A stretch of 33,137 nt of DNA from Verrucomicrobiota bacterium (GTDB lineage Bacteria; Verrucomicrobiota; Verrucomicrobiia; JADLBR01): NCBI GenBank assembly GCA_029560585.1, contig JAKQKQ010000027.1, positions 1 to 33,137 on the forward strand, read 5' to 3'. Each line of letters starts with the position of its first letter. Position 1 is the stretch's first letter. Both the position numbers and the translations under genes were made by a program. Below are positions 13,130 through 32,032 of this stretch, one piece after another. Under the pieces are notes generated by a model that did not search any database, was not told the origin of the DNA, and saw only the letters and a list, made by a program, of their open reading frames with translations.

Positions 13130-14659
13130 TCATTTGGGGTTGGTTCTTGCGGCACCGGCAGCCCCGCCTTTGGGAATGGTGTAGGAGCACGCGATTCGGC
13201 GGTTCTTCCGGTTGGATGTCCCCTCTCCCGGCGGGCAGGAGAGGATATAATCCGCGGTGACTTTCTCGGGCGACACCGTGATCCTCATGTGGCCGGGGCT
13301 ACCGAGGATCGTGCCCTCGACATACCCGTACTCCGCGGCGCTGCGCGGCGCCCTCCCGTCGCCGGGAAATCCTGGCTGTGGCACCTCTTGATAAATGATG
13401 CCGCCGAATTCCTGCTTGGCGAAAAGGTGATCGTGGCCGTGGAAGACGATGTTGACATGATTGCGCGCGAGCAATTCGTGGATGGGAAGCGGCCAGCCGG
13501 GGCGGTTCTGCTTGAAGCCGTCGCTGCCATCCCGATTCTTGCCTCCCCACTCGTAATAGGGGGCCGTCTCTGAGCCTCCGCGGCCCTCGGGGGTGATGCC
13601 GCCGACGAGGTGGTGAATGAAGACGAGGCGGAATTTCGCCCTGCTCTGTTCCAGGGTGCGCTTCAGCCATTGGTATTGCGCGAGACCCAGCGTGCGGTTC
13701 CAATTCTCGTCGGAATCGCGGCCGCCCGCACTGCTCGGCCAGAACGGGTCGAGCATCACGAAGAGGGCATCGCCCCATTCCCATGCGTAGTAGTTTTCCA
13801 AGAGGCCCGCGGTCTCGTGTTTGATCTCGTTGCCGGTGTAGAAACTGTCAGGGACCGGGTTGGAGAAATACTTCTTTCGCATCATGTTCGCCCAGACGCT
13901 CGCCTCCTCCTCGCGCCGCCGCTCACCCTTTTCGCCATCGTGGTTGCCGAGCACGAGGAAAACCGGCGCCGAGTGCCCGATGAGCCCAAAATAATACCGC
14001 TGCGCCAGATACTGTTGGGATGCGGCGGGCCGATCATCCCGATATTTGCCCGTCATGAACGTGTCGCCGAGATCGATGTGAAAATCCGGCGCGTCGGCCA
14101 AGGCGTTGGCGAGGGTGCGGGTGTAGACCGACGGTTCGGTGTTACTATCGAGGTGCGAGTCCGCTTGCACGGTGAAAGTGAACGTCGCGCCGGGCGGACG
14201 CTGGGTGTGGAAGGTGTGCTCAGGGCTTTTTTCAAATGTCGCCGATCCCTGCACACGCGAGCAGAACTGATAATAATAGCGGGTGTTCGGCTGGAGGGGG
14301 GCGACGGCCATTTCGGAGGGCTGGCCTGCCTTGAGGGCACACGTCGGCGTCTTTTGGGAGCACCGGCCGGGTTGCGTGCCGTAGGCGATGTAGCATTCGG
14401 CATTGGTGTAGGAGAGCACGCTGAGCGTGGTGGCGTTCTTCGTGGGCCGAGCGAGGACGAGATCGTAAGGATGAGGCGGCACCTCGGTCCGGAATCCCCC
14501 TTGGGGACCGCCGCGATGCCCTTCGTGACCGCGCCCACCCCTGCCAGTGCCGCGCGGCCGCTGTTCCTTGCCAGAGCCATCCTGCGGCGCGCAGACGACC
14601 GGGATGGCGATACCCAGGAATATCCATGCCGTGAAGGCAGCAATGGTGGTGCGGATCAT
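13130..14659 (-). CDS. Secreted purple-acid-phosphatase-like metallophosphoesterase
   Basis: With the start at 14659 the 509-residue product opens with a signal peptide (TTIAAFTAWIFLGIAIP) and a Gly/Arg-rich tract (about 36-56). An N-terminal fibronectin-like domain (about 60-152) with PLQPNTRYYYQF follows, then a calcineurin-like phosphoesterase domain with all metal motifs: D167-S-H169, GD at 198-199, GNHD at 238-241, FIHH at 347-350 and GHDH at 408-411. Purple acid phosphatases of this plan hydrolyse phosphomonoesters outside the cytoplasm. A longer start at 14719 would put 20 non-hydrophobic residues before the signal and is rejected. It follows the sulfatase operon on the same strand, separated by about 250 nt of hairpin repeats. 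Metal type and substrate are not determinable. Confidence 0.85.
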   Translation of the reverse strand: MIRTTIAAFTAWIFLGIAIPVVCAPQDGSGKEQRPRGTGRGGRGHEGHRGGPQGGFRTEVPPHPYDLVLARPTKNATTLSVLSYTNAECYIAYGTQPGRCSQKTPTCALKAGQPSEMAVAPLQPNTRYYYQFCSRVQGSATFEKSPEHTFHTQRPPGATFTFTVQADSHLDSNTEPSVYTRTLANALADAPDFHIDLGDTFMTGKYRDDRPAASQQYLAQRYYFGLIGHSAPVFLVLGNHDGEKGERRREEEASVWANMMRKKYFSNPVPDSFYTGNEIKHETAGLLENYYAWEWGDALFVMLDPFWPSSAGGRDSDENWNRTLGLAQYQWLKRTLEQSRAKFRLVFIHHLVGGITPEGRGGSETAPYYEWGGKNRDGSDGFKQNRPGWPLPIHELLARNHVNIVFHGHDHLFAKQEFGGIIYQEVPQPGFPGDGRAPRSAAEYGYVEGTILGSPGHMRITVSPEKVTADYILSCPPGEGTSNRKNRRIACSYTIPKGGAAGAARTNPK

Positions 14660-14909: not shown

Positions 14910-16349
14910 TCACGGTGCCTCGGTGGGGTTATCGCGGCGATTGCCACCTTTTCCCTTGCCGCCCCTATCACCCTTCTTGCCTTTGACACGCTGTTCTTGG
15001 CTCGGCGGTTTGCTGGGGTCGTAGTCGGGATTGGGTGTCGGCAATTGTGCATCGAGGGCCTTGAGGTACTCGGCGAGACGCCGGTCTAGCTCGTCAACCT
15101 TTTGGGGCATCTGTTTCGCCAGATCCTCTCGTTCAGCTATGTCCTTCGACAGATCGAGGAGCATGCGTTCGCCGGTCTCGTAGAAGCGGATCAATTTGTA
15201 GTTGCCGAACAGCAGGGCCGAGGCCGGGCCGAGCGCGTCCTTGTCGTAGTGCGGGAAGTGGACGACGAATTCCTCGCGGGGTCTTTTCACGATGCCCGTG
15301 CCCCCGTTCATCAGCACCTGCGCGAAACTCCCGCCCTCGATGGCCTTCGGGAGCGACTCCTTTACACCGGCCAGTTCGGCGAATGTGGGAAACATGTCCG
15401 TCCCGGTCACGCGCACGTGCGAGCATGCGCCCGCCTTGACGCCCGGCCCGGAGACGATGAATGGCACGCGGATGCCGCCCTCCCAAACCGAACCCTTCCC
15501 GCCAGTCAGCGGCGCATTGCGGCCGGGCGAACCGTGGTCGGTCGTGAAGAAAACGTAGGTGCTGCCTTTGAGTCCGAGCCGATCCACGGCGTCAAGGATT
15601 TGTCCCAGGCTCTGGTCGGTAGAACTGATCTCCTCCTCCTGATTTCCCGGCCCTCGTTTTCGTCCGCCGCCCCCGCCCTTCCCCTCCTGGCTCGGATAGT
15701 GCGACATCTGGACGTAGAATGGCCGACGGGCTTTCATCTGCCTCCCCATGAAATCGATGCCGTGCTCGGTCATCGCGATCGCCTGTTTGGGATTTGGGTC
15801 AGCGACGTTCTCTGGACCGCCGTTGCCGGTCGGACCGTCGCTCTCGTCGAATCCATGCTCGGACGGATCTTCCCGGCCAACGTGCCATTTGCCGAAGTGG
15901 GCGGTGGCGTAGTCCGCCCGCTTGAGCAACTCGGCGATGGTCGTCTCCTCCATCGGCATCTCAAGGGACGCGCGCGGCGGGATGACCTTGATGTTCGCCC
16001 CCCCGTCGCCGCGCGCCCCCTCCGCGCCGACGAAGGTCATGTGCAACGACGCGGGGCTCCGGCCGGTGAAGAGGGCCGCGCGAGAGGGCGTGCAGCGCGG
16101 TGAGGCGGCGTAGCCGTCGGAAAATCGCATGCCAATGGCGGCGAGCCGCTCCACATTGGGCGTCTTGATTCTGGAACCTTTCGAGGCGGGATTGCGGTCG
16201 TCCATCTGCACGGAGCAGCTGGTCCAGCCTGCCCCCTCGCCGAGGATGACGACGAAGTTGGGGTGTTGATTCAACGCCGCAGACCGATCAGCGGAAACAG
16301 TCAACAGGGCCGCCGCGAGAAGACTTGGCCATCTGGTGATTTGTTTCAT
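14910..16349 (-). CDS. Secreted sulfatase, formylglycine type
   Basis: The 479-residue protein has a signal peptide (residues 1-26) and an alkaline-phosphatase-superfamily sulfatase fold. The formylglycine site is C86-T-P-S-R90, followed by AALFTGRSP. HFGKWHVG near the middle and FFTTDHGSPG further on supply the other active-site and metal residues. Type I sulfatases hydrolyse sulfate esters and need Cys86 oxidised to formylglycine. Unusually, the first metal-ligand pair (normally Asp-Asp after the PNFVVIL strand) reads GEGAGW here. A Gly/Arg-rich insert follows SQEGKGGGGG, and the C-terminal tail is Lys/Gly-rich. Its start is 6 nt after the stop of the arylsulfotransferase-SMP-30 gene, so it is the last gene of that operon. 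The substrate is unknown. Confidence 0.87.
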   Translation of the reverse strand: MKQITRWPSLLAAALLTVSADRSAALNQHPNFVVILGEGAGWTSCSVQMDDRNPASKGSRIKTPNVERLAAIGMRFSDGYAASPRCTPSRAALFTGRSPASLHMTFVGAEGARGDGGANIKVIPPRASLEMPMEETTIAELLKRADYATAHFGKWHVGREDPSEHGFDESDGPTGNGGPENVADPNPKQAIAMTEHGIDFMGRQMKARRPFYVQMSHYPSQEGKGGGGGRKRGPGNQEEEISSTDQSLGQILDAVDRLGLKGSTYVFFTTDHGSPGRNAPLTGGKGSVWEGGIRVPFIVSGPGVKAGACSHVRVTGTDMFPTFAELAGVKESLPKAIEGGSFAQVLMNGGTGIVKRPREEFVVHFPHYDKDALGPASALLFGNYKLIRFYETGERMLLDLSKDIAEREDLAKQMPQKVDELDRRLAEYLKALDAQLPTPNPDYDPSKPPSQEQRVKGKKGDRGGKGKGGNRRDNPTEAP

Positions 16350-16355
16350 TTTGTT

Positions 16356-18869
16356 TTACGGTTTTGACTGTCGGCATTTCAACGTGCCCGGCGTCTGCAT
16401 CTGCACGGAGTAGAGCGCCGGCCGGGTTGTGATGAAAAGGGTTCGGCCATCCTTGCCACCGAAACAGAGATTCGTCGGCTGCTCGGGCACCTCGATCGTC
16501 GCGATCCGTTTGCCGGTCGAATCGTAAACAAGCACGGCGTCCTCCGCGAGATAGACGTTGCCCTCGCTGTCCATGCACATGCCGTCGGCGCCCACGGGCG
16601 CGAAGAATCGCTTGTTCGAGAGCGCGCCATCGGGGCCGATGTCGTAGGCGTAGATCTTCCGTATGCCGTGGTCGCTGACATAAAGGGTCTTGCCATCGGG
16701 CGTGCCGATCAGGCCATTCGGCCGGACCATATCGTCGATGACGCGGACCACGCGCTTGCGGTCTGGGGCAAGGTAGTAGACACACTCCCCGTCCTGGACC
16801 GGGCGGGTGCCATAGGCCGGATCGGAAAAATAGATGCCGCCGGAGGGCGCGATCCAGAGATCGTTGGGTTTGTTGAAGCGCTTGCCGTTATACTCTCCGG
16901 CGAGCACAGTGACCTGGCCGCGGCCGTCGATCGAAACCAATCGACCGCGGTCGCCCTCGCAGGCGACGAGGTTTCCCTTGCCGTCGAAGAAGAGGCCGTT
17001 GGCGCCACCGGTATCCGTTCGGTAAGTGGAGAGCTTTCCGTCGATGGACCACTTGTACGTCTTGCTGGTCGCCAGATCGGAGAAGTACAGATTGCCAGCC
17101 GCGTCGGCGGCGGGGCCTTCGGCGAACTGGAATTCCCGCGCCAATTCCTTGGCCGTTGCTCCCGACGCCAGTGGGCTGTTCGCGGCGGCGCCTTGCTCAA
17201 CGGGTCGTCGATCATCGCTGGGTGGCATGGGGTCGTCCCCGTCGGCGCGATCGCCATCTCTGGGGGGAGGACGATCACCGCCACGATCACCGCCACGGTC
17301 GCCGCCGCCTCCCTTTCCGCGACCCCCACCTTTTCCTTTCTTCTGGCCGCCTTGTCCGGGAGACGGACGGTCTTTCGCGCGGGGATCGGTCTGGCGCGGA
17401 AACGCGTCGGTTATAGTCCCAAGGGGTTTGAGATCCTTGCCCTTTAAGGCCGGGTGATCTGGCGAATAACGATAGGCGCGAAAGGCGCTGTTAACCATCG
17501 GCAGCACATCGGGCATCATTTTTACCGTGCCAAGCTCTTTCGTCACGGGGTTGATGTATTCCCAGACCAGTTTGCCGGCGCCTGTGACCTCGAAGAAGTG
17601 GCCTTCGGTGTCGGAACAAATCAGGGTGTTGCCATTAGGCAGACGTTGGCCGCTCGAACCAATCTGGCTGAAAAAGCCGTGATTATTGATAGACCGGTAA
17701 CTCCACACCACATGCCTGGAGATTTGCCGGGGGGAGTTGTGCGTGTCGTGGTCGTACTCCTCGCGGACATAACCGGCGTCGGGCGGGTTGACATATTTGC
17801 CGGTATCGCGGCCGCTGGAGTCGAGAAATGGGTTAATCTCTATGATGGATGACTGGGGTGTCCTTTGGAAGAGATACTGGCCATTGTTAAACACCATGAT
17901 GTGGCCGGCGCCGGGAAGTCCGGGCCTGATCCAGTGCGCGTCATGGGAACCGCCCATCTGCTTGTGGCCGGAAGTCGCGTTGTCCCAGTTTTCCAGCACC
18001 TTGGGCGGGTCGCCCTGGCCATAGCGGGCCGGATCGCCGAATCGGTAGAGAAAATCGCCCGCGGGCCCAGCGGCTTTGGCGATGCTGGTGTTCGCGTCAC
18101 CGGGGACGAAGGTGCCGTCGTGATCGATGACGTACAGTTCGCCCTGCACGGAATTGATAACGATGTGCCCCGACTCGGCGTTGTAGTCCATGGAATTGCA
18201 GTGGAGCCAGTCCCGTTTCAACGGCCGTCCCGGCATGTTGATGTTGATCTTGTTCGGATAATCGGATGCGGTCTTCCCCTGTCCGGCGTAGTTGGCCTTC
18301 GACGGATCGATGTCCTGCACGACGTGGTCGAAGAACCACCATTCCCAGACGACGTTGCCCTTCATGTCCACTTCAACCACGGCGTCCATCTGTCCGCCCT
18401 CGTACGGACCCTTTTTGGGGTCTGCGCCGGCGGCGATGGCCTGCTCGTGCGAGATGGACTTGTTGGCGATGTACATCGTGGTCGGGGCCTTGAGCTTCTT
18501 GTTGAACGTCCTCACCCAGTCGTGGTGGGGCGCGTAGTCCTCGCGCTTCTCGGTATATTCCCAGACCTTGTTGCCATCCCAGTCCACCTCGACGAATCCC
18601 TGGAAGCCGCTGGGGTCATCCTTCGAGGCATCCAATAGATTGCCATTGTCGAGAAAGCGCGGGTTGGTGCCCTGGCGCCCCGTGTGGACCACCTGGCCGG
18701 ACATGTCGATGAGGTAAGTGGTGCCGTGCGTGCCAAACAGCGTGTAGCCGTTGAAGGCGTTGGTGCTATCCCAGTAGAGTAGCTCCGTTGGGCCCTGCAG
18801 GCGCTCGTAGGCGATGGCCGAGGTCGCCATCAAGCAGCAACAAATCAGAAATAGTCTTGTGGTTTTCAT
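16356..18869 (-). CDS. Secreted arylsulfotransferase-like / SMP-30 fusion
   Basis: This 837-residue protein starts with a signal peptide (cleavage near Ala20). Residues about 25-490 match the arylsulfotransferase (ASST) beta-propeller pattern: AFNGYTLF near 38-45, repeated DWDGNKVWEY-type blades, APHHDWV, GSHDAHWIRPGLPGAGH and RLPNGNTLICSD. A low-complexity linker (about 510-565) rich in Gly, Lys, Arg and Asp joins it to an SMP-30/gluconolactonase propeller (about 577-837) with the metal-site segments EGP (Glu584), KPND (Asn669) and YVSD (Asp733). ASST enzymes move sulfate between phenolic compounds; SMP-30 enzymes open lactones. Whether either half is active is unknown. It starts 15 nt after the EF-hand frame of the upstream gene and ends 6 nt before the sulfatase. 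Confidence 0.82.
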   Translation of the reverse strand: MKTTRLFLICCCLMATSAIAYERLQGPTELLYWDSTNAFNGYTLFGTHGTTYLIDMSGQVVHTGRQGTNPRFLDNGNLLDASKDDPSGFQGFVEVDWDGNKVWEYTEKREDYAPHHDWVRTFNKKLKAPTTMYIANKSISHEQAIAAGADPKKGPYEGGQMDAVVEVDMKGNVVWEWWFFDHVVQDIDPSKANYAGQGKTASDYPNKININMPGRPLKRDWLHCNSMDYNAESGHIVINSVQGELYVIDHDGTFVPGDANTSIAKAAGPAGDFLYRFGDPARYGQGDPPKVLENWDNATSGHKQMGGSHDAHWIRPGLPGAGHIMVFNNGQYLFQRTPQSSIIEINPFLDSSGRDTGKYVNPPDAGYVREEYDHDTHNSPRQISRHVVWSYRSINNHGFFSQIGSSGQRLPNGNTLICSDTEGHFFEVTGAGKLVWEYINPVTKELGTVKMMPDVLPMVNSAFRAYRYSPDHPALKGKDLKPLGTITDAFPRQTDPRAKDRPSPGQGGQKKGKGGGRGKGGGGDRGGDRGGDRPPPRDGDRADGDDPMPPSDDRRPVEQGAAANSPLASGATAKELAREFQFAEGPAADAAGNLYFSDLATSKTYKWSIDGKLSTYRTDTGGANGLFFDGKGNLVACEGDRGRLVSIDGRGQVTVLAGEYNGKRFNKPNDLWIAPSGGIYFSDPAYGTRPVQDGECVYYLAPDRKRVVRVIDDMVRPNGLIGTPDGKTLYVSDHGIRKIYAYDIGPDGALSNKRFFAPVGADGMCMDSEGNVYLAEDAVLVYDSTGKRIATIEVPEQPTNLCFGGKDGRTLFITTRPALYSVQMQTPGTLKCRQSKP

Positions 18870-18884: not shown

Positions 18885-19376
18885 TCAGTTTCGTGGGGGA
18901 CCGTCCATCCCTCCCTGCTCAAGGCCGCGCCTGTCACCACCGCCATCAACCTCCTCGCGCGTGAGGCGGCCATCGCGATCGCGGTCGGCCGCCTTCAGTG
19001 CCGCGGGGGCGTTGTCGATCTCCGCGGGGGAGAGGGAGCCATCACCGTCGGCGTCGAGGGTTCGCATGAGCGGCCCGCCGGGGCGGCGCTTGCGGCCATC
19101 TTTGCCGGGCTGGCTTGTGCCCGCGTCATCGATCTCAGAAACGACCAGTTTGCCGTCGCGGTCTTTGTCGAGGGTCGTGAGGGTCTTCGCGGCATCGGCC
19201 ATCTCGGAGGCGTTCAGGGTGCCGTCCCCGTCGGCATCGATCGCGGTCGCGAGGGGGGATCGTCCGAAGCCTTGGCCGCCCCCGCGGCCTTGGCCTGTGC
19301 TGTTGCTGCCATCGCGGGGTGGGGGGTTTTCACCGCCGCTGCGCGACGCCTCCTCCGAGGGTAGGGTTGGCTGCAT
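18885..19376 (-). CDS. EF-hand protein; probable frameshifted tail of the SUMF1 fusion
   Basis: The 163-residue frame has a Pro/Gly/Arg-rich N-terminus and four canonical EF-hand loops: DADGDGTLNASE, DKDRDGKLVVSE, DADGDGSLSPAE and DRDRDGRLTREE. Each has the D-x-D-x-DG-x-L-x3-E calcium-binding pattern. There is no signal peptide and no ribosome binding site at the ATG. The same frame continues upstream, without a stop back to about 19483, into Arg/Asp/Pro-rich sequence of the same kind as the end of the overlapping large gene, which is in another frame. I infer it is the C-terminus of that protein displaced by a 1-nt indel near 19450. A separate small calcium-binding protein is the alternative. 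Confidence 0.72.
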   Translation of the reverse strand: MQPTLPSEEASRSGGENPPPRDGSNSTGQGRGGGQGFGRSPLATAIDADGDGTLNASEMADAAKTLTTLDKDRDGKLVVSEIDDAGTSQPGKDGRKRRPGGPLMRTLDADGDGSLSPAEIDNAPAALKAADRDRDGRLTREEVDGGGDRRGLEQGGMDGPPRN

Positions 19377-22300
19377 GTTCTGGCGGTCATCGCGGCCGCG
19401 ACGGGAATCTTCTTCACGCGGGGGTGGCGCAGACCGGCGATCGTCTTCACCCGGCCACCTTTTCCATCGCCGGGTCCGCGTTCGTCACGTCCCCTCCCCT
19501 TGCCCCGACCGTCTTTCTGCTGGAAGCGCTCGCGGTCCTCGGGCGGGGCGTCTGCGGCATCGAGGCCGGTCTTGCCCTTCTGTGAGGCGGGCAACTCGAT
19601 GACATCGCCCCGGCTGAGGTTCCGGCCCACGAGGCCGGGGTAATCGGGGGCGTAGCGGTGGACCTTGAAGACGGCGTTCCAGAGATGGCCCCTGACGTCT
19701 TTTCCAGGCACCTCGCCCTGGGCGAGGATGCCGCCCCGCACCATGGGGTTGACATATTGCCAGACGGTCTCGCCCGCGGCTGTGACCTCGAAGAGGTTTC
19801 CGATGACGCCTGCGCAGATCAGGGTGTTGCCGTTGGGCAGACGGTGCGCACCGGAGATCTCCGAGGAGAAGAAGTCCTCCCGATTCTTGGCCTCATAATG
19901 CCAGACGGGTTTCTCCGGGCCATATGCCTTTCCGGAGCGGATGATGTAACGGCCATTGGAGTCGGTGGGCGGCTCGATTTCCTCCACGCTCGAGTAACCG
20001 CGGTCGTAACCGTTGTTGAAGATCGTGATGTGGCCCGCGCCGGGGTAACCGTCGGGTATCCATTGTGCGTCATGCTGTTGGACGAGCTGTTTATCCGTGG
20101 CGGTGCCGCGTCCATATGCGGCGGGATTGCCCCAGCGGTAGATCAAATCGCCACCTTTGCCATGCTTGCCGCCGGAGTGGCCCCCGGCCTCCTTCGTGGT
20201 GGTGCTGTGGTCGAGGACCCAGATCTCGTTGCAGCCGCGGACACTCAGCATGATCTGGTCGAGCTTCGGGTTGTAACTGATGGAATTCATGTGATTCCAG
20301 AAGGCGGGGACCGCGCGCCCGTTGCAGTCCACGTCGATCCGTTCCGGGTGTTCGGACGGCTCGCCATAGTTCGGCTTGGATCGATCGTTGTTCTGGAGCA
20401 GGTGGTCCCAGGCGCGCCACTGCCAGACGATCTTGCCGCCCTTGGACCGCGTTGGCTGGACCTCGATGACGGAGTCCGGGAACAGCTGCCGGTCGCGCAG
20501 CATCTGCGGATTAAAACCCGCCTCGATGCACTCCTCGTAGGATTTCTTTTCCACGACGAGGAAAAGGATGTTGCCGTTCGGCATCGGGGCGACATCGTGG
20601 TGCGAGAGGTAGGTGTCGGAGGAGTAGTCAAACTCCCAGATGAGATTGCCGTCCCAGTCGAATTCCTCCAGCCGGCCGCCTTCGCCGCCGCTCGTGAAAC
20701 CCTTGTTCTTCGTGAAACAGCAGTGGAGCAGATTGCCGTTGGGCTCCAGGTAGACGGACTGGCCCGGCTCGTACTGGCTCTTCCACGAGTGGACCGCGCG
20801 GCCCGCGTTGTCCATGAGATAGATCACCGTGTTGTGCTTCGGCGCGAAGAGCGTGTAGCCGTTGAAGGCTTTCTGGGTATTGAGGAAAAGCCCGACGGTC
20901 TGGCCGGGGTTGGGCGAGGTCGGGATCTTGTTCGCGTGCATGGTCGCGCCTCCGCCGCCGCCCTCTGGCCGACCCTGACCTCTTTCTTCTCGTCGGCCTT
21001 GGCCGTCCCCGTCGCGTCGGTCCTGGTTCCGCCCATCGCGTTGGTCACCCCGGCGATCATCGCCCTCGCCCGGCCGGCGGCGCTCCCCCCCACTTTCAGG
21101 GGGTGGCGGCGGGCGCTCGCCATCAGGCGGGGAGAGACGATTTTCCCGACCCTGCCGCTCGAAATCGCGGGGCGGACGGTCATCCGCCTGTCTGGGCTGG
21201 CCTTCCCCTTGGGCAGACGCGAGGCCTTCTCGCGTATAAGTCACATGCAGTTCCGCGCTGGCGAGGACGCGATCCTTCATGGCCGCGAGCAGGGTGTCGC
21301 GGTCAACCTCGGCGGGAGGAACCATGATCTGGGGGGGAGCCGAAAGCGCGTAGAGCGTGTACACGTAAATCTTGGCGCCGGGTCCTTTGGAATGCGGCGG
21401 GGCGTATTCCGTGCGGCTGTTGACGCTGTTATTTCCCAAGGTCCCGACCCCTTTCACATTCTTGGGGAGGCTTCTGACAGTCGGCGGAATGTTGTAGAGG
21501 GTCCAATACCACTTGGCTTCGCCGGCGGGGTCGATGTGGTGCATGATGAGCGCGTAGCTCTTGGTCCCCGCTGGCGCTCCACTCCACTGGAGGGGAAGCG
21601 TCGCGCTCTCGCCATCGCCGGTGAACTCCTTCGGCAGGGTTCCACCATCCGTCACTTCGGGGCTGGTCAAAGCGAAACCGGCCGCTTGCTCCTCGCGTCT
21701 CACCTTCGGGGATGCGGGTGCCGAGGTGGCGCGCGTTGACGTTGAGGAGGCGGATGGGAGGACGACGCGGAAGCCGACGTGATAATAGGGATGGTTCGGG
21801 TCCTGTGGGCCGCGGAAGTACGAGGGGTCACGATTTGAAACACGGCTGTGGCCGTACTCTCCATTGAACCAGTTGCCACCGCGCATCACGCGGTAGGGTT
21901 TTCCGTCGGGCATCGGGCTTCCGCGCTCGGGGCCGGGCGGATTTAGGGACGGACTGTTGCGGTAATAATTTCGTTCGTACCAGTCGTTGCACCACTGCCA
22001 GACATTGCCGACCATGTCGTAGAGGCCGTATCCATTTGCCCCGTCCTTGGTCTGATAGGTGTCCTGCGAGCCGGGCCAGCCGGAATCCGATTTGCGGTGG
22101 AGCTTGCCGTCATAGAAACCGACCGGAGTGGTCCAGGGCTGGGGGCCGCTCTCGTATGGGTCACCGGAATTTGGCCAGTTTGCCCGGGTGACATCGGGCT
22201 CATCGCCCCAGGGGAAGTTGTAGTAAGGATCGTGGTGTCCACCGCGCGCGGCGTATTCCCATTCGGCCTCGGTGGGGAGACGATAGCCGCCGGCAGCGAG

Positions 22301-22792
22301 GTCACAGGCCCAGCCATCGGCCTTGTAGCAAGGGCGTAAATGCGCCCACTCGCTGAGCCAATTGCAGAAGGCCGCCGCCCCATGCCACCGCACGCAGACC
22401 ATCGGATGGTCTTCCTTGCCATCGAGGACGGCGAATCTCTTGCCGTCCCAATCGATCCGGCTGTGGGGGGAGGCGGCGCGCGTCTCGCATAGAATGTCCT
22501 GACCGCCAGCGAGGTAGACGTTCCCATCCCGCACCTCGACCGCGCGCTTCGCCAAGGAGGCATTGAGAAACTCGCAGTACTCGCGGGTGGTCACGTCATA
22601 GACGCCCATCTGGAAGGTCCCCAGTCGGACCTTGTGGAGCGGTATCTCGTCGCTCCCGTGCTTGGGATCGACGAACCCATGATGGTCGCCCATCTCGAAT
22701 TCCCCCGCCGGGATCGCCGCCATCTTCGGAGCGCCACCCGCGGCCAGCGCGGGAAGGAGCGCCATCGCGCATATCCAATGTCCACGTGTCAT
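19214..22792 (-). CDS. Secreted SUMF1-PEBP-arylsulfotransferase fusion protein
   Basis: From the ATG at 22792 (AGGAG 7 nt upstream) the frame encodes 1192 residues. In order: signal peptide (1-20); a SUMF1/FGE-sulfatase fold domain (about 24-346, with RLPTEAEWEYAARGG, NVWQWCNDW and VMRGGNWFNG); a PEBP/YbhB-type Raf-kinase-inhibitor-like domain (about 372-520, with LQWSGAPAGTKSYAL and WTLYNIP); a Pro/Arg/Asp-rich linker (522-615); and an arylsulfotransferase-like propeller (about 620-1080, AFNGYTLFAP, RLPNGNTLICAG). The last 80 residues change to Ala/Arg/Pro-rich nonsense-like sequence where the frame appears shifted away from the EF-hand tail. The FGE catalytic cysteine pair is absent: the equivalent segment reads NWFNGEYGHSR. 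It heads the operon with the ASST-SMP-30 and sulfatase genes. The function is not established. Confidence 0.8.
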   Translation of the reverse strand: MTRGHWICAMALLPALAAGGAPKMAAIPAGEFEMGDHHGFVDPKHGSDEIPLHKVRLGTFQMGVYDVTTREYCEFLNASLAKRAVEVRDGNVYLAGGQDILCETRAASPHSRIDWDGKRFAVLDGKEDHPMVCVRWHGAAAFCNWLSEWAHLRPCYKADGWACDLAAGGYRLPTEAEWEYAARGGHHDPYYNFPWGDEPDVTRANWPNSGDPYESGPQPWTTPVGFYDGKLHRKSDSGWPGSQDTYQTKDGANGYGLYDMVGNVWQWCNDWYERNYYRNSPSLNPPGPERGSPMPDGKPYRVMRGGNWFNGEYGHSRVSNRDPSYFRGPQDPNHPYYHVGFRVVLPSASSTSTRATSAPASPKVRREEQAAGFALTSPEVTDGGTLPKEFTGDGESATLPLQWSGAPAGTKSYALIMHHIDPAGEAKWYWTLYNIPPTVRSLPKNVKGVGTLGNNSVNSRTEYAPPHSKGPGAKIYVYTLYALSAPPQIMVPPAEVDRDTLLAAMKDRVLASAELHVTYTREGLASAQGEGQPRQADDRPPRDFERQGRENRLSPPDGERPPPPPESGGERRRPGEGDDRRGDQRDGRNQDRRDGDGQGRREERGQGRPEGGGGGATMHANKIPTSPNPGQTVGLFLNTQKAFNGYTLFAPKHNTVIYLMDNAGRAVHSWKSQYEPGQSVYLEPNGNLLHCCFTKNKGFTSGGEGGRLEEFDWDGNLIWEFDYSSDTYLSHHDVAPMPNGNILFLVVEKKSYEECIEAGFNPQMLRDRQLFPDSVIEVQPTRSKGGKIVWQWRAWDHLLQNNDRSKPNYGEPSEHPERIDVDCNGRAVPAFWNHMNSISYNPKLDQIMLSVRGCNEIWVLDHSTTTKEAGGHSGGKHGKGGDLIYRWGNPAAYGRGTATDKQLVQQHDAQWIPDGYPGAGHITIFNNGYDRGYSSVEEIEPPTDSNGRYIIRSGKAYGPEKPVWHYEAKNREDFFSSEISGAHRLPNGNTLICAGVIGNLFEVTAAGETVWQYVNPMVRGGILAQGEVPGKDVRGHLWNAVFKVHRYAPDYPGLVGRNLSRGDVIELPASQKGKTGLDAADAPPEDRERFQQKDGRGKGRGRDERGPGDGKGGRVKTIAGLRHPRVKKIPVAAAMTARTCSQPYPRRRRRAAAVKTPHPAMAATAQAKAAGAAKASDDPPSRPRSMPTGTAP

Positions 22793-23113: not shown

Positions 23114-24325
23114 TCAGTCGCGCAGCTCAGCCAAGGCCACCCGCAGCACCTCCACGGCCTCCTTTTGGCGCGAGACGACCACGTAAAGGTGGTCACCGTG
23201 GACGATGCTGTGCGGATAGCCGTATTCGCCGCCCTTGGATTGCCCGGATCGGCGCGCCTCGTAGTGGGTGTCGCCCAAGATGTAGTGCCGGTCAAACCGG
23301 GTCCCATCGCGCGAAAGTGACAAAACCAAAGGCGTACGCGCGCGGCCAACCGGGTTCCCAACGTAATAGAAACGCCCGTCGGGCAGACGGCCGAAGTGGA
23401 ACTTGGCGTTGGTGTCGCTGAAATCTGTCTCACCGGGTTTGGACCACGTCGCCCCGCTGTCCCGACTCTCGGTCAGCCAGAGGCGGTGGGCGTTCTGCTT
23501 GGCAGCGTTGCGAAGCAGCATGTGCAGCACGCCGTCGCCCGTCTGGTAGAAAGAGCCTTCGCAGAGCGCCGCCGGCCAACCCTGGTGCTTCGCGACCTCC
23601 CAAAATGACGCCGGGTCGTCCTTGATCGTGGCGGCCATGTCATCCGGGTAGATGCCGGTCATGCGCCAGCCGGCGAGACCGGTCGGATCGTCCGTGTAGG
23701 GGAACGAAATGTTTCCTGAGATGATGAGTCGGCCCGAGGCGGTGCGCTGCGGGCCATGGTTGGGATTGATCGGGACGCCCATTTCGCGCACGGCGCTCCA
23801 GCGCTCCCCATCCACCGTGGTCACGGCCTGCAAATGTGTGGTCTCCTTGTGCGGCCCGTAATTGCCGAAGTATGCAACGAGCGTTTCCTCGGCCTGGTGA
23901 AACCCGGAGGCGGTCAGCACGCGCTCGACGCCATCCGCATCCTTCACCGAATCCACCAGCGGGCGCGGGGTGGTCCAGTGTTCAAAATCCTCCGATGCGG
24001 CCACCAGCACCCGTTGGCCCGGCGCATCTTCGTCCTGACGACCATTTGACCAGATCGCGTAGAAGCGACCATTGAAGAACGTCAGGCTCTGATGATGCGA
24101 GTACGTCCATTCCGCCGTCGGCTGGTAGATAAACGCGCTCTCCACCCTCGGCCGCCTTATTCCGGGCAGCGAGACCGGCCGGTCGTTCTTCCATTCCACG
24201 CAATTGGTGATGGGATTGCGCGGCCCTCCCTCGGCGTGAAGTCCCAGGTGCGTCAGGGCGACGACAATCATCGCCGCAGTGATTTTCCGAATGTCGCCTG
24301 ATTGCATGTGCTGGTATTTCCTCAT
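23114..24325 (-). CDS. Secreted BNR/sialidase-type propeller protein
   Basis: The 403-residue protein begins with a short basic stretch and a hydrophobic signal (ITAAMIVVALTHLGLHA). The body is a beta-propeller with an Asp-box, SRDSGATW (S-x-D-x-G-x-x-W), and related turns such as TVDGERWS and SEDFEHW. This places it among sialidase-like or exo-acting glycan-binding/hydrolysing proteins; catalytic residues were not assigned. The start at 24325 overlaps the stop of the upstream UroD-like gene as ATGA, indicating translational coupling; a longer frame to 24466 lies inside that gene and is not used. It is the last gene of the minus-strand operon starting at 28731. The substrate is unknown. Confidence 0.72.
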   Translation of the reverse strand: MRKYQHMQSGDIRKITAAMIVVALTHLGLHAEGGPRNPITNCVEWKNDRPVSLPGIRRPRVESAFIYQPTAEWTYSHHQSLTFFNGRFYAIWSNGRQDEDAPGQRVLVAASEDFEHWTTPRPLVDSVKDADGVERVLTASGFHQAEETLVAYFGNYGPHKETTHLQAVTTVDGERWSAVREMGVPINPNHGPQRTASGRLIISGNISFPYTDDPTGLAGWRMTGIYPDDMAATIKDDPASFWEVAKHQGWPAALCEGSFYQTGDGVLHMLLRNAAKQNAHRLWLTESRDSGATWSKPGETDFSDTNAKFHFGRLPDGRFYYVGNPVGRARTPLVLSLSRDGTRFDRHYILGDTHYEARRSGQSKGGEYGYPHSIVHGDHLYVVVSRQKEAVEVLRVALAELRD

Positions 24326-25398
24326 AGGGGCATGGTCAATTCGTGCCACAGGTCGCGCATGGCGGCGCATTCGTCCCGTCCCGCCGGAAAGACGAGCGGC
24401 CGAAGAATGACTCGCGCGCCCGTCTCCCGGACCAGAGCCGCCAGGCGTCGCACGTAGACCTGCCAACCTTCTCCCGGCTCTGCCGCCATGCGGCTATAGA
24501 GCACGGTGCGGCTCTCGGCGCAACGCTCCAGCAGCCAGCGCGTGTCGTACATTTCCGGATTGCCGAGGTCGATGGCGCGCACGGCCTCCGATCGGCAGAG
24601 CTGTTCAAAGAAGTTCGTGTGTTTCCCGCAGAAATGCGCGAACGTGCCGCCGAACCGCGCTGCCGCCTTTTCGATGCTCGGAACGATCAGCCGCTCGATC
24701 ATCGCGGGTGACAGCAGCGTGGCCGTGTCCTCCGCCATCCGCACCCCGGCGTTCGGAAAGAACACGCCCTGCGACGTGCCGTGGCCGTGAATCATGCTCG
24801 CCGCAGGTTCGCCCATCATGCATTTCACGTGACCCGTTGCTTTGAGATAAAGCTCGAGCGAAAGCGCCAGCAGTTCATCGATCCAGTCGGACTGCTCCGG
24901 GTCGGCGATGTCGCAGAAGAGGTCGTCGCCCCACAGCAGATGAGCGATGTCGAACACGCCCTGCGTATCGGGGTGATAGGGGGCGATGTCCTGGCAACCG
25001 GATGCGGCGTGGATCGCATAGAATTCCGCCGCGAGCCGCATTGTCTCACTCCGGCCGACCTCCATCGTACGAATGGCGCGGATGGCATCGCGCGTCAACG
25101 GTTCGCCCGGCCACGGCATGGCGTCGCCGGGCAGCTGGTAGTTCTGCCCGGCCATCGCGGGAACGAAAATCACCCCGAGATTGGGCCGCACGGTGAGGAT
25201 GCCATCCGTCGGCCACCCCACGAGCGGCTCGGCCCGGCGCATCTCAGACTCCCACATCGCCCGCGGGTCGTGAAAGCGCGATGGGTAGTTGTTCAGGTCG
25301 TAGAGATCCTGTCTGGCTGCCGGAATCAAGATCAGGCTCGGCCCCTCCCCGCGCCAGAAGGCCCCGTGCGATTCCCTCTTGTGGGCGATGCCGTTCAC
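24322..25398 (-). CDS. Uroporphyrinogen decarboxylase/methyltransferase-family protein
   Basis: The GTG at 25398 forms a GTGA overlap with the upstream stop, giving 358 residues; the upstream part of the frame to 25497 shadows the preceding gene. The sequence has the UroD-like TIM-barrel pattern: DIAHLLWGDD, LLALSLELYLKATGHVKC, MAEDTATLLSPAMIERLIVPS and a C-terminal VILRPLVFPAG strand. HFCGKH matches the His-x-Cys zinc site of the corrinoid methyltransferase branch (MtaA, CmuA types) rather than haem biosynthesis. Such paralogues often lie beside glycan genes in this group of bacteria. The actual reaction is unknown. It lacks a signal peptide, unlike both neighbours, so it should act in the cytoplasm. 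Confidence 0.72.
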   Translation of the reverse strand: MNGIAHKRESHGAFWRGEGPSLILIPAARQDLYDLNNYPSRFHDPRAMWESEMRRAEPLVGWPTDGILTVRPNLGVIFVPAMAGQNYQLPGDAMPWPGEPLTRDAIRAIRTMEVGRSETMRLAAEFYAIHAASGCQDIAPYHPDTQGVFDIAHLLWGDDLFCDIADPEQSDWIDELLALSLELYLKATGHVKCMMGEPAASMIHGHGTSQGVFFPNAGVRMAEDTATLLSPAMIERLIVPSIEKAAARFGGTFAHFCGKHTNFFEQLCRSEAVRAIDLGNPEMYDTRWLLERCAESRTVLYSRMAAEPGEGWQVYVRRLAALVRETGARVILRPLVFPAGRDECAAMRDLWHELTMPL

Positions 25399-26593: not shown

Positions 26594-28051
26594 TCACTTT
26601 TCCCCGACGGGTAAACGGAGGCGAAACGTCGTGGTGCCATCGGGCGAGGGAGCATCAAGAACGAGGGTGCCGCCGTGCGCGAGGACGATTTCTCGGGCGA
26701 GGCTGAGGCCGAGGCCGGCGCCATTCGTCGGTCGAGCCTTGGCGTTGGCACCGCGATAGAATCGCTGAAATACCGACTCGCGGTCCGCGGGCGGGACGGG
26801 ATCGCCAGTATTGGTCAGGACGAGTTCGGCAAAGCCGTTGACTCGGGCGAACCGGCAGTCGATCCATCCGCCCTGCCGATTGTGTTTTACCGCGTTTGAG
26901 AGGAGGTTTTCGACCGCGCGGCGAAGCAATGTCGCGTCGGCTGAAACCGCGATGTCAGGTTCGATTTTTCGGTGGATTTCTATTTGCCGTGGTTCGGCGT
27001 GCAGCTCGGTATCCTCGAGGAGGGAGATGAGCATTTCACTGAATTGGATGGACTCACGATGAAGGGGTAACTTTCCCGCATCGGCCCGGGAGAGAAGGAG
27101 CAGACTGTCCAGAGTGCGCCGCTGTCGGACAACTTCATCCAGCAATTCGCTGAATGCCTGCTGCGATTCCGATCCGGCGGGGAATTTGGACAGGGCGCGC
27201 TCGATCGTGCCCTGCATGACCGCGAGCGGCGTTTTCAGTTCGTGCGAGGCGTCGGCGGTGAAGCGGTTGGCCTGGCGGAAACTGCGCTCGAGACGCTCCA
27301 TCATCGCGTTGAAAGCACCTATGATCCGCCGGAATTCGGCATCCGCCCGCTCGATCTCGATGCGCTGGTCGAGGCCGCGGGCGGAGAGGGTCTCCATGCG
27401 GGCGCTGAGCGCGTCGATGGGTTGAAGCGCCCGGCGCGCAACGACGAGCGCGCCCAGGGCGATGACAATCAGGGCGCCGGGCAAGGCCGCCCCGAACGCC
27501 ACACCCAGCGCGCGAAGGTCCGTTTCCATGGGGCGCAGGTCGGCGCCGAGCACGACGAGGACCTCATCGTTGCCAAAGGCGGCGATCCGGGCGCGCGCGC
27601 TGGCGTTGCGCACAAATTGAAACCGGGGCTCACATTGCAGGCGAGGCGGGGGTTGTTTTCCGTCGTCGCGCGGGCGCATGTCCTGGACCACCGGCTGGGG
27701 ATCCATCAGGCGATCGCCGGGCCGATACGCGCGAGGGTCGAGGGCGGTCGGCCAATTGGCATCTTTGTACAGCACGCTCCCGGGGCGGGTGATCAGGCAC
27801 AAGAAGCGGTGCGCGGCCCTTTCTTCGCCGATGCGGTCGGTGAGTGAAAGCCGGATCTGGGCGCCGCTCACGTTGCGTCCGGCGCGTCCCGCCACCCGAC
27901 AACCAAAATCCAGCAGTTCCTGATCCAGCATGCGGAGGCGGTCCTGATACAGGATCCAACCCGAGACCGCGCCGAATGCGAGCAGCACGAGTCCGGATGT
28001 CGCCACCGAGATGGCCGCGAGGCGGAATCGGAAGGAGCGCGTCGGCTTCAT
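26594..28051 (-). CDS. Sensor histidine kinase
   Basis: This 485-residue kinase has two membrane segments (about 11-35 and 183-206) enclosing a periplasmic sensor region of some 145 residues, a HAMP linker (about 203-255), the dimerisation/phosphoacceptor helix with ASHELKTP (His270), and an ATPase domain with the N-box ENLLSNAVKHN (381-391) and glycine-rich GAGLGLSLAREIV (444-456). The layout is that of EnvZ/CusS-type kinases paired with OmpR regulators. The sensor region shows no ligand-binding signature I recognise. Its ATG overlaps the regulator's stop codon by 4 nt (ATGA), so the two are cotranslated. It is followed by the glycosidase-like gene. Confidence 0.93.
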   Translation of the reverse strand: MKPTRSFRFRLAAISVATSGLVLLAFGAVSGWILYQDRLRMLDQELLDFGCRVAGRAGRNVSGAQIRLSLTDRIGEERAAHRFLCLITRPGSVLYKDANWPTALDPRAYRPGDRLMDPQPVVQDMRPRDDGKQPPPRLQCEPRFQFVRNASARARIAAFGNDEVLVVLGADLRPMETDLRALGVAFGAALPGALIVIALGALVVARRALQPIDALSARMETLSARGLDQRIEIERADAEFRRIIGAFNAMMERLERSFRQANRFTADASHELKTPLAVMQGTIERALSKFPAGSESQQAFSELLDEVVRQRRTLDSLLLLSRADAGKLPLHRESIQFSEMLISLLEDTELHAEPRQIEIHRKIEPDIAVSADATLLRRAVENLLSNAVKHNRQGGWIDCRFARVNGFAELVLTNTGDPVPPADRESVFQRFYRGANAKARPTNGAGLGLSLAREIVLAHGGTLVLDAPSPDGTTTFRLRLPVGEK

Positions 28052-28731
28052 GACGGATCACCCGGTTTCCGGATGCGATAGCCGACGCCACGGATCGTCT
28101 CAATCAGTTTAACCTGTGCGCCCTCGTCAACCTTCTTCCTGATCCTGGCAATCGCGACGTCCACGACATTGGTCCCGGTGTCGAAGTGCGTGTCCCAAAC
28201 GTGCTCGTTGATCTGCGTGCGCGTATAGACGCGGCCGGGCGAACGCATAAGGTAGGCGAGGAGGTCGAATTCCCTGGCGGTCAATTCGATCTTGGATCCG
28301 CCACGTCGCACCTCGCGCGTGATGAGGTCAAGGGTCAAATCGGCAACCTTCAGTTGGCTGGGGGGTGTGCCCGAAGCCCGGCGGAGCAGGGCGTTGAGGC
28401 GGGCGGCGAGTTCCTCGACGAAGAACGGTTTCGCCAGATAATCGTCCGCTCCAAGGTTAAGCCCCTCCACCCGCTCCTCCAGGCCATCGCGCGCCGTGAG
28501 CAGGATGACGGGTGTCGCGATGCGGCGCCCTCGCAATTCCCGGAGGACGCTGAGTCCGTCGCGGCCGGGTAGCATGATGTCGAGCACCATCGCGTCATAG
28601 GGTTCGCGGCATGCGCGCTCGAATCCGTCTTCGCCGGTGCGACAAACGTCCACGCGGAAGCCGTGCTCCTCCAGACCCCTCCGGATAAACTCGGCGATCT
28701 TCTGCTGATCTTCGACAACGAGGATCCTCAC
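28048..28731 (-). CDS. OmpR/PhoB-family response regulator
   Basis: The 227-residue regulator has a receiver domain with the acidic pair in VVEDQQ (residues 5-8), phosphoacceptor Asp51 in MVLDIMLPGRDG, Thr79 in LLTA and Lys101 in YLAKPF. It is followed by a winged-helix DNA-binding domain (about 130-223) with LTAREFDLLAYLMRSPGRVYTR and the recognition region VDVAIARIRKKVD, ending VGYRIRKP. The start is GTG. It most likely controls its own operon, including the downstream secreted enzymes, and perhaps the divergent gene at 29060. The 28732-29059 region holds the candidate control sites. Confidence 0.94.
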   Translation of the reverse strand: MRILVVEDQQKIAEFIRRGLEEHGFRVDVCRTGEDGFERACREPYDAMVLDIMLPGRDGLSVLRELRGRRIATPVILLTARDGLEERVEGLNLGADDYLAKPFFVEELAARLNALLRRASGTPPSQLKVADLTLDLITREVRRGGSKIELTAREFDLLAYLMRSPGRVYTRTQINEHVWDTHFDTGTNVVDVAIARIRKKVDEGAQVKLIETIRGVGYRIRKPGDPS

Positions 28732-29059
28732 GGTGGCGCGCCTCGCGTTCCAGCCTATCGATCGATCGCTTGAAAGCCAGCTTTGCCGAGGATGTATTCC
28801 GATTTGGTGCCCTGCGAGGCTGGCACCACCGTTGCGGAGAATTTAGCCGGGCCACGCGTCCCGAGCCTTGATCGGCCAACGCGATTCGGATGGAATAGGA
28901 GTATCTCTGTGAGCCGAACCAGCCACCTCCTCGTTCTCAGCTTCGCCAACGTTGAGCGCGATGAAAACCTCTACACGAGCTGCAGGCACGGGCAGGAGGG
29001 CTGCGCGCTCCCGATCATTTCCCTGCCAACGCTCGCGATCCATTAGGAGGAAAAGAGAA
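28732..29059. promoter_or_regulatory. Divergent control region between regulator and FG-GAP gene
   Basis: This 328-nt gene-free stretch must carry promoters for both directions. Visible structure: the tetranucleotide run ATCGATCGATCG near 28758, and the inverted repeat GGTGCC (28806-28811) / GGCACC (28822-28827). A possible plus-strand TTGATC with TGGAAT 17 nt later (about 28868) is weak. None is proven. Confidence 0.4.
29045..29050 (+). promoter_or_regulatory. Ribosome binding site of the FG-GAP gene
   Basis: AGGAGG lies 9 nt before the ATG at 29060, the strongest Shine-Dalgarno in the window. It selects that start over an in-frame ATG 36 codons upstream. Confidence 0.8.
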
Positions 29060-31855
29060 ATGGTACCGATACCTACGACCTGTCGGGCGGCGCTCATCGC
29101 TGCACTTTGCACATCAATGGCCGGCGCCGCGGTCGAGATCCTGCCCACAGGCGGCCGCAATATCTATCGGCTGGTCTCCGCGGAATTGGATGGCCCATCC
29201 GACGCGAGGGAGATCGTTGGCTCAGCCTACGACAATCGCGTGTGCGCGTTCGGCGCCCGCGGCAATCACCTCTGGGATGCGCCGACCGGCGGGTTCGTTT
29301 TCGACCTGGCGGCGGGCGATCTCGATGGTGATCGCAGGGACGAGATCCTCGCCGCATGCGCGGACGGATTCGCGTACGCCTTCGGCGCCGACGGAAAACT
29401 CCGTTGGAAATATGACCTGGGCGCGCCCGTGTGGCAGGTGGCGACGGCGCGACTCGATGGCAAGACGCCCATCGCCTTGGCCGGGGGAGTCAGCCGCCGG
29501 GTGGTTGCGCTCACGGCGGATGGCAGGGCCCTCGGCGACGCGCGCGCGGGCGCGGTCAATGGCGTGGTTCGTTTGCTCCGCGCGGGCGACTTCGATGGCG
29601 ATGGTGCGGACGAAGTCGCGGTCCTGCCCGTGCGCGGCCAAGCACAAGACCTTGTTTTCTTCAAGGGCCCCCAACTCGCCCAGCTCAAGGAGCGGATAAC
29701 ATTTGAAAAAGTCCCGTGGGACTCCTCGTCGGCAGCGGCCAAGAAGTCGGGAGCGGACTTCCGCAAGGGCAAGCAGACTTGGACGGCCAAGAGCCTGCTG
29801 GCGGCGAACGGCACGGCCGCCGATTTCGATGGCGATGGGGCGAGCGAACTCGTCTATAACCCCGGGGCTTACGCGCTCAAGGGCGGTCTGCGGCAGATCG
29901 TCGCCTTGCCCGAGGCCTTCAAGGCGGCGAGCTATGACCAGTTCTACCGCATGCGGCTCGTCGCGGCCGGGGATCTGACTGACGATCCCGGCGCTGAGAT
30001 CGTGCTGCTCGAGGGACCCGAGATTCGGATCTACGGCAGCGGCGGCAAGCAGCTCGCTGCCGCGAACGCTCCCTTCGGTTTCACAGACGTGATCTACGTG
30101 CCCGGCTCACCCCATGGCCACGTGCTCCTGGGCTCGAGCCCCAATGGCGACGACAACCTCTATCGCCTCACGTTCGAACGGGGCTGGGAGAAAGAGATCG
30201 CCGCCCTGCAACGCCGGGGGCTCATGGCTGGCATTGGCACGAACCTCGTGCAGCTGGCGGAAGCGATGGGCAAGTGGCGCGGCGCGCCAATGACGGGCGC
30301 GCCGGGGCCCTATGACGTCGTGGTCAATCATCACCTCTGGAGCGGACCGGATCCGGCGAAGTGCGAGCCATGGATCGCCGAGGTCCGTCAGTACGAGAAG
30401 GAATTCCCCTATCCCAACCTGCGCTTCTCGACGTGTTTCTGGCCCGGGGAGGACGCGCCCCTGCTCCGGCCCGACGGCAAGCCATGGGAGCGCGACAGGC
30501 GCCTTGCGCACGATCTGTCGCGCGCGGACATCGTGGCCGCGGCGAGGCGCTTCGAGTCCGCCCAATGCCACTTCTGGGTTCAGGTCGGTCACGGCTGCGC
30601 CCCACATTGCGAGGTCGCCACCGTCGCCGCCATCCTCGATGTGGCGCCCAAGACCTGCCTCGGCTTTATCAGTGCCGAGGACGAGCAACTCGACGGCGTT
30701 CCTTACTACATCGAGCACCACATCCGGCCCATCCTCAACCTCTGCCTCAAGCACAAGAAGCGGTTCATTCCGCGCAACAAAGACGTCTGGTGGCTCCACT
30801 GGCCCGCAGACCCGCAGGTGAAGAGATTAATGTTCGACGGGCGATATCGCTCCGTGATCCTGCCGGGCGTCGAGGATAGCAACTCGAGAACGACGGACGC
30901 CCAGCTCGCCGCACGCGTCGGCCTCTGGCTCGACGGGCAGGTGGACGACTGGTGCAGCAGGGTCTCCGCCGATTGGTTCTGCGTCAGCCGCGCGTGGGAG
31001 TGGGAATACGTCATGACCGGCCATCCGCACCTGCGCTATCTCACATCGCAGGCGGCCCTCGGCGCACGCGTGTTCATGCTCTTGAGCGGCGAGCGCGGTC
31101 GCGGCACTGGCGAGTGGACCCGCGTCGGCCAGGAGGGCGCCTCGAATTTCCTTCATCTTATCGGCAAGGGCATACTCGCCCCGCCGCGCCGCGAGCAGCT
31201 CCGGGCCATCTCGCCCTTGGCGCTTGTCATGGAGGGGCCCACGAAGCGTTTCGAAGAGCACGGCGCGAACGGGCATCATCCGGAGCGCTGGGGCGACGAC
31301 GGTACAGATAGCGAGCCATGGGCCTTCGACCGCCTCGATTGCTACTGGGCCATGGCCCCGCTGCCTCAGACGGACATCTCCACGCTGCTCTGGGGGCGCT
31401 CGCGCCGCACATCCGAGAATCTCACCATCACCGCGCCGCACGGTTTTGTCTGCCTCGTTCCCGGAGGAAAACCGTTAACCCCCGGCCGCTGGACTTCCCT
31501 CTGGACCACCGACGGCGACCGGCTCACCAAAGACGGCAAGACTTACACCCTCCCCGACGCGCGCGCAGCCATCGCGGCCGAACTCACCGAAGGCGCGCAT
31601 ACCCTCCCATTTCGCGTCGATGGCCACGTCTTTCATCAAGTCATCGAGAACTCCCCCGACCGCTTCACCATCGCCCTGATCGATCCCGGCTGGCTCGACC
31701 CGGCCGACCGCGATGCGAAGATCATCCCCAACCGCGCCGGCAATTGGCGCGTCATCGATCGGCTCACCGGCGAGAAACTCGGAGACCTCCGCCAGCCTCT
31801 CGCCCTCAGGATCCCGGCAGGCGTCTTCCGATTGCTCGATATCCAGCCCGAATGA
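29060..31855 (+). CDS. Large secreted FG-GAP protein with uncharacterised C-terminal half
   Basis: The 931-residue product has a signal peptide (CRAALIAALCTSMAGAA). Residues about 30-380 are FG-GAP/VCBS-type propeller repeats with calcium-loop motifs DLDGDRRDEI, DFDGDGADEV, DFDGDGASEL and a degenerate DLTDDPGAEI. The following 450 residues are not recognised; they contain LGFISAEDEQLDGVPYYIEHH, aromatic-rich NKDVWWLHWPADP and WFCVSRAWEWEYV, which could be a TIM-barrel-like glycosidase or carbohydrate-binding part. The last 100 residues look like a beta-sandwich. FG-GAP repeats are known from integrin-type and lectin-type extracellular proteins. It is divergent from the two-component operon, so the same signal may control it; I infer a polysaccharide-related role. 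Confidence 0.75.
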   Translation: MVPIPTTCRAALIAALCTSMAGAAVEILPTGGRNIYRLVSAELDGPSDAREIVGSAYDNRVCAFGARGNHLWDAPTGGFVFDLAAGDLDGDRRDEILAACADGFAYAFGADGKLRWKYDLGAPVWQVATARLDGKTPIALAGGVSRRVVALTADGRALGDARAGAVNGVVRLLRAGDFDGDGADEVAVLPVRGQAQDLVFFKGPQLAQLKERITFEKVPWDSSSAAAKKSGADFRKGKQTWTAKSLLAANGTAADFDGDGASELVYNPGAYALKGGLRQIVALPEAFKAASYDQFYRMRLVAAGDLTDDPGAEIVLLEGPEIRIYGSGGKQLAAANAPFGFTDVIYVPGSPHGHVLLGSSPNGDDNLYRLTFERGWEKEIAALQRRGLMAGIGTNLVQLAEAMGKWRGAPMTGAPGPYDVVVNHHLWSGPDPAKCEPWIAEVRQYEKEFPYPNLRFSTCFWPGEDAPLLRPDGKPWERDRRLAHDLSRADIVAAARRFESAQCHFWVQVGHGCAPHCEVATVAAILDVAPKTCLGFISAEDEQLDGVPYYIEHHIRPILNLCLKHKKRFIPRNKDVWWLHWPADPQVKRLMFDGRYRSVILPGVEDSNSRTTDAQLAARVGLWLDGQVDDWCSRVSADWFCVSRAWEWEYVMTGHPHLRYLTSQAALGARVFMLLSGERGRGTGEWTRVGQEGASNFLHLIGKGILAPPRREQLRAISPLALVMEGPTKRFEEHGANGHHPERWGDDGTDSEPWAFDRLDCYWAMAPLPQTDISTLLWGRSRRTSENLTITAPHGFVCLVPGGKPLTPGRWTSLWTTDGDRLTKDGKTYTLPDARAAIAAELTEGAHTLPFRVDGHVFHQVIENSPDRFTIALIDPGWLDPADRDAKIIPNRAGNWRVIDRLTGEKLGDLRQPLALRIPAGVFRLLDIQPE

Positions 31856-32032
31856 ATCTTTCATGATGGCTTCGTTGCGACCTCCAATCGGCCCCGCTGG
31901 ATAGTGGCCCCCCGGCCGATGCGCAGCGCGCCCTCCTTTCCTGCTCGACGGCGTCGAAAGTTCAATGCAAATTGACATTTAATGCCCCTATCGAGCCCAG
32001 GGTACACCCCCAGAAAGGGAGGGACTCACGCC

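Follow-up and report, generated by a model that had tools for sequence, protein, structure and literature searches.

Can a domain related to the formylglycine-generating enzyme (FGE, or SUMF1), a PEBP domain and an arylsulfotransferase (ASST) propeller truly belong to one secreted protein and, if so, what might that protein do? The question is raised by a locus of a Verrucomicrobiota bacterium, within a stretch of 33,137 nucleotides that we refer to as ‘the window’. A preliminary description placed the three domains in one frame behind a signal peptide, with four EF-hands directly downstream in a shifted frame and a second ASST fusion and a sulfatase adjoining. Its author knew of no described protein with this set in one chain, and proposed, as a possibility, a secreted sulfo-transfer or scaffold complex. 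The features of the locus are these:

19214..22792 (-): main fusion gene, 1192 aa, comprising signal peptide, FGE/SUMF1-like domain, PEBP domain, charged linker and an ASST propeller, here termed ASSTa
21761..22732 (-): SUMF1/FGE-like domain, residues 21-344, without the catalytic cysteine pair (Pfam FGE-sulfatase, PF03781, E 9.3e-49)
21236..21640 (-): PEBP (YbhB-like) domain, residues 385-519 (Pfam PBP, PF01161, E 9.4e-23)
19532..20917 (-): ASSTa propeller, residues 626-1087, with H731/H732, H834, N836, R852 and H907, from profile and fold match (Pfam Arylsulfotrans, PF05935, at 654-1000, E 1.1e-23)
19400..19460 (-): probable single-base frame break, from linker continuity and codon usage
18885..19484 (-), stop to stop: four EF-hand loops in a shifted frame (Pfam and loop inspection)
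16356..18869 (-): exported fusion of a second ASST (ASSTb) with an SMP-30/gluconolactonase (SGL) domain, without an Arg374 equivalent (Pfam and alignment)
14910..16349 (-): type I sulfatase with signal peptide and CTPSR motif at 16094-16080 (Pfam and motif)
13130..14659 (-): exported purple-acid-phosphatase-like (PAP) metallophosphoesterase, with homologues in 49 of 84 related loci

SUMF1-like domain, PEBP domain and arylsulfotransferase propeller really are joined in one exported protein. Its frame runs on the minus strand from an ATG at 22792 to a stop at 19214, and its N-terminus, MTRGHWICAMALLPALAAGGAPK, is signal-peptide-like when judged by eye, as are the starts of the window's products. 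All three Pfam matches lie far above their gathering scores (166.8 bits against 23.3 for the SUMF1-like domain, 81.5 against 24 for PEBP, and 84.3 against 24.2 for ASSTa), and the two whose lack of significance had been named as refuting, PEBP and ASST, are both significant (E 9.4e-23 and 1.1e-23). The span first given to the whole, 18885-22792, is correct, and the second ASST fusion and the sulfatase do adjoin it (18869..16356 and 16349..14910).

The four EF-hands lie, as first described, outside this frame. Theirs is the -1 frame relative to the fusion, one base off, and it contains four canonical 12-residue calcium-binding loops (at 19238, 19169, 19055 and 18986), one of which reads DADGDGTLNASE. 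A codon-usage scan prefers the main frame as far as ~19400 and, from ~19410 onward, the EF frame, which puts the switch between ~19460 and ~19400; the last ~80 codons of the 1192-aa frame are out of natural frame. Beyond ...GPGDGKGG the main frame no longer resembles the charged linker of the family, and the EF frame carries that linker onward, as GEDDRRSAPPPREEDSRRGRDDRQN, and then into the EF-hands. The simplest and likely reading is therefore a single-base indel near 19400-19460, whether a true one in the genome or one introduced by the assembly. We prefer it to a programmed -1 frameshift because no canonical slippery heptamer is found by eye at the switch. A separate EF-hand gene, rather than a C-terminus of the fusion, could be argued from the difference in frame and from an ATG at 19376, but we think it improbable: the EF frame lacks a signal peptide, the ASST linker passes into it seamlessly, and relatives have EF-hands in frame (L039 and L042). 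In a further relative, from Planctomycetia (L020), FGE, PBP, four EF-hands and ASST share a single frame (the ASST is partial, near a contig end), and its EF module is homologous to that of the window, at 59% identity. Most likely, FGE-PBP-ASST and the EF-hands form a single chain.

Nor is the fusion unique. We searched the GTDB genome collection at the protein level, with the full-length fusion as query, and obtained 77 distinct loci. The gene set is spread among bacteria of about ten phyla, as read from carriers that are nearly all metagenome-assembled genomes, with phylum labels from single contigs and some frames possibly wrong. The labels are Verrucomicrobia, Lentisphaerae, Planctomycetes, Hydrogenedentes, Acidobacteria, Bacteroidetes, Ignavibacteria, Chloroflexota, Armatimonadetes, Desulfobacteraceae, Sumerlaeota and Gemmatimonadota. 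Besides the window, ten contigs have FGE-PBP-ASST in one open frame, and two have FGE-4xEF-ASST; other one-frame arrangements are FGE-ASST, FGE-EF-ASST, ASST-FGE, ASST-PBP and ASST-FGE-SGL-ASST. ASST occurs alone in 49 frames, usually adjoining an FGE gene. A 3536-aa protein (L054) combines ASSTb, two PAPs, Lcl_C, FGE, SGL and ASSTa, and nearly the same parts, distributed over separate genes, make up the window's operon (FGE-PBP-ASSTa-EF, ASSTb-SGL, sulfatase, PAP). Proteins of 2,400-3,700 aa with FGE, SGL and ASSTa occur at L054, L056, L078, L032 and L046; four also carry a second ASST. On a tree of ASSTa, the presence or absence of the FGE-PBP-ASST label requires at least six changes, and the nearest relatives of the window encode the parts in separate genes that lie side by side; as far as the tree can tell, therefore, fusion and separation are both repeated events. 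Separate homologues together with an assembly join had been named as what would undo the fusion. The parts are indeed separate in the closest relatives, but the join is contradicted by independent fused copies. Chimeric assembly of unrelated genes, for which one could cite a carrier genome in 336 contigs and the frame break within the locus, is extremely improbable, since the same order and fusions recur in independent contigs of other genomes and studies; for FGE-PBP-ASST these copies rule it out.

The pairing of ASSTa with FGE is strict. On contigs from the full-length query, 67 of 71 ASSTa frames either include FGE or have it no more than 3 kb away, and the other four are all at or near contig ends. 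Because loci found with a full-length query lean towards complete sets, we also carried out an ASST-first survey, in which an ASST profile (A1) was run against 289 Verrucomicrobiota and 395 Bacteroidota genomes and the matches were then searched for FGE (24 of 39 in Bacteroidota; the window's genome was left out). The FGE subfamily was present in all 14 genomes whose best ASST reached 640 bits or more (9 Verrucomicrobiota, 5 Bacteroidota), and in none of the 26 tested genomes below this value (Fisher p 4e-11, for a cut-off set after the scores were seen). In G289, one of the genomes without an FGE partner, the sole ASST is an ASSTb that lies near a contig end. Each of the 12 strong FGE matches in Verrucomicrobiota adjoins an ASST. 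Strong ASST matches of any kind occur in 17 of the 289 Verrucomicrobiota genomes, and this patchiness suggests that the gene set has spread horizontally. Sulfatase homologues are present in 19 of 84 related loci, and Lcl_C proteins in 35 (e.g. L111:16174-17562 and L021:13615-14964); an Lcl_C protein was sought in the window and not found. LytTR response regulators (L057:8522-9250) recur in five loci and His_kinase proteins (L077:11028-12116) likewise in five, Bacteroidota clusters being represented for both.

ASSTa appears to be an enzyme. In E. coli ASST, the sulfuryl group is coordinated by H252, H356, N358, R374 and T501 (review, PMC13426309). The ASSTa profile aligns with this protein (E 9e-8), and its active-site residues align to E. 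coli H252, H356/N358, R374 and H436; H282 of the domain, which is H907 of the protein, falls on the histidine that the H436N entries replace by Asn. In domain numbering, H106, H107, H209, N211 and H282 are kept in 83 of 83 ASSTa sequences, and R227 in 82. The best fold match of the predicted ASST part is Cpz4 (Z 29.9, rmsd 3.0 over 324 residues), followed by ASST H436N with p-nitrophenyl sulfate (Z 23.0), and ASSTa shares no more than 20% sequence identity with characterised ASSTs. Judged from these alignments, ASSTa keeps its sulfohistidine active site intact; by itself, a conserved active site leaves donor and acceptor unfixed.

In the SUMF1-like domain, catalytic residues are missing. Its top fold matches are FGEs, obtained with a predicted model of modest confidence (mean pLDDT 62 for the domain alone; low confidence for this part of the full-length model). 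The copper-binding catalytic cysteine pair (CxxxxC, RGGNWF region) is absent from all 77 aligned SUMF1-like domains; the subfamily has three conserved cysteines, and a conserved block of its own, RGGNWYNGExGHxRVSNR, replaces the cysteine region. Because the catalytic cysteines are absent, formylglycine-generating activity is ruled out, and the automatic label ‘sulfatase-modifying factor’ is wrong for this subfamily. A maturation unit, with the SUMF1 domain producing formylglycine on the sulfatase next door, would suit the strong SUMF1-family matches and that sulfatase's CTPSR motif, but the missing cysteine pair, and the lack of a sulfatase in most related loci, largely refute it and make it very improbable. 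The strict pairing with ASSTa suggests, rather, that the SUMF1-like domain is a working partner of the propeller, most simply one that binds or positions the acceptor. The PEBP domain has a clear fold match (3n08, Z 22.9, rmsd 1.8), scores below the NCBIfam TIGR00481 cut-off (45.2 against 57.75 bits), as a divergent PEBP would, and is dispensable in many relatives.

Downstream of the fusion, the propeller of ASSTb-SGL belongs to a family whose key His persists in 50 of 55 members, and in 51 of them a Gln or His stands in the position of the Arg; ASSTb may therefore be altered or inactive. The PAP-like gene comes next after the sulfatase, and is also part of the conserved set. Directly upstream of the fusion is a BNR/sialidase-like gene (23114-24331, -), and further upstream, on the operon's strand, are a histidine kinase and an OmpR-type response regulator (26594-28731, -). 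A lambda-carrageenase-like gene (28952-31855, +; Pfam CGLA_M E 8e-32, with CGLA propeller and C-terminal domains) is followed by a 3-keto-disaccharide hydrolase (31982-32722), and the two are a possible link to sulfated polysaccharide. The BNR and carrageenase-like genes have homologues in none of the 84 related loci, which rules out a conserved role for either.

From this wholly computational analysis, we consider it probable that the locus encodes a fused version of a conserved exported set, in which a PAPS-independent sulfotransferase, ASSTa, works with an obligate, catalytically dead SUMF1-like partner. Sulfo-transfer, as originally proposed, is thus the best-supported reading, given the intact ASST active site, with the amendment that the SUMF1 domain is no formylglycine-generating enzyme. 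The sequences themselves show the domains and how they are conserved, the strict pairing, the intact active-site residues and the signal-peptide-like starts; the activity, its substrates, the direction of transfer and a physical complex are what we infer. The mechanism we propose follows E. coli ASST and Cpz4. H907 would take the sulfuryl group of a phenolic sulfate ester, with H731/H732, H834, N836 and R852 holding it. From there the group would go on to an acceptor that the SUMF1-like domain, with its C-type-lectin fold, delivers or orients; a sugar hydroxyl might serve. Cpz4 is PAPS-independent and prefers sugar hydroxyls (PMC13426309), so a glycan acceptor is plausible for ASSTa. The PEBP and EF-hand modules would be optional additions, ASSTb-SGL a second propeller unit, probably altered, and the sulfatase and PAP-like phosphoesterase would act on the same material or on something akin to it, stripping off sulfate and phosphate esters. 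Against this reading stand the lack of a sulfatase in most loci, the low identity to characterised ASSTs, carriers that are nearly all metagenome-assembled, and the modest confidence of the SUMF1-like model.

A more ambitious version is possible, if doubtful: a distinct, horizontally spread extracellular ester-remodelling machine, in which SUMF1 fold and ASSTa together constitute the sulfotransferase, the former as its acceptor-binding half, and ASSTb-SGL, sulfatase and PAP round off a surface system for moving or removing sulfate and phosphate groups on a shared glycan. At the other pole, propellers, lectin-like SUMF1, PEBP and EF-hands might only bind ligands or calcium at the cell surface, as a non-catalytic scaffold or adhesin. 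The giant fusions, charged linkers and EF-hands do resemble the architecture of surface proteins, a Bacteroidota form has a Por secretion tail, and ASSTb has lost the Arg374 equivalent. Binding alone, however, would not require that every tested catalytic residue be kept in 83 ASSTa from many phyla, and we regard a purely binding role as unlikely. A physical scaffold complex, the other half of the original proposal, is likewise something that we infer.

The individual families are well known. For the combined set and the fusion, we found no description in open-access PMC text, and no equivalog in NCBIfam matches. One paper takes arylsulfotransferase genes, present in genomes of Hydrogenedentota and Sumerlaeota, as support for the making of sulfated polysaccharide (PMC10866078), and for most bacterial PAPS-independent sulfotransferases natural acceptors and physiological roles are unknown (2026 review, PMC13426309). 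The locus brings to light a large, multi-phylum ASST clade with an intact active site; gene order and repeated fusion link it both to ester hydrolases and to one specific partner, a dead SUMF1-like domain. Fusions hint at which proteins cooperate, and the role of the partner is directly testable.

Among known systems, YbhB/YbcL-type PEBPs share fold and Pfam family with the window's domain (Z 21-23); their canonical ligand-pocket motifs are DPDxP and GxHR, and the window's family has other conserved residues there. AssT of E. coli CFT073 (PDB 3ELQ and 4P05) shares the six-bladed propeller fold with ASSTa (Z 22-23, ~19% identity), and its active-site His, Asn and Arg, including sulfated H436, are all aligned; it is a single enzyme with an N-terminal beta-sandwich, for which no SUMF1, PEBP or EF-hand partner is described. 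The closest structural match, Streptomyces Cpz4 (the caprazamycin sulfotransferase; PDB 9KF4 and 9KF6), is 19-20% identical to ASSTa, and is an antibiotic biosynthesis enzyme, likewise with no such partner domains described. FGE (SUMF1) and its paralogue SUMF2, finally, are of the same fold family as the window's domain; FGE has catalytic cysteines whereas the window's domain is without them, and in that respect it resembles SUMF2.
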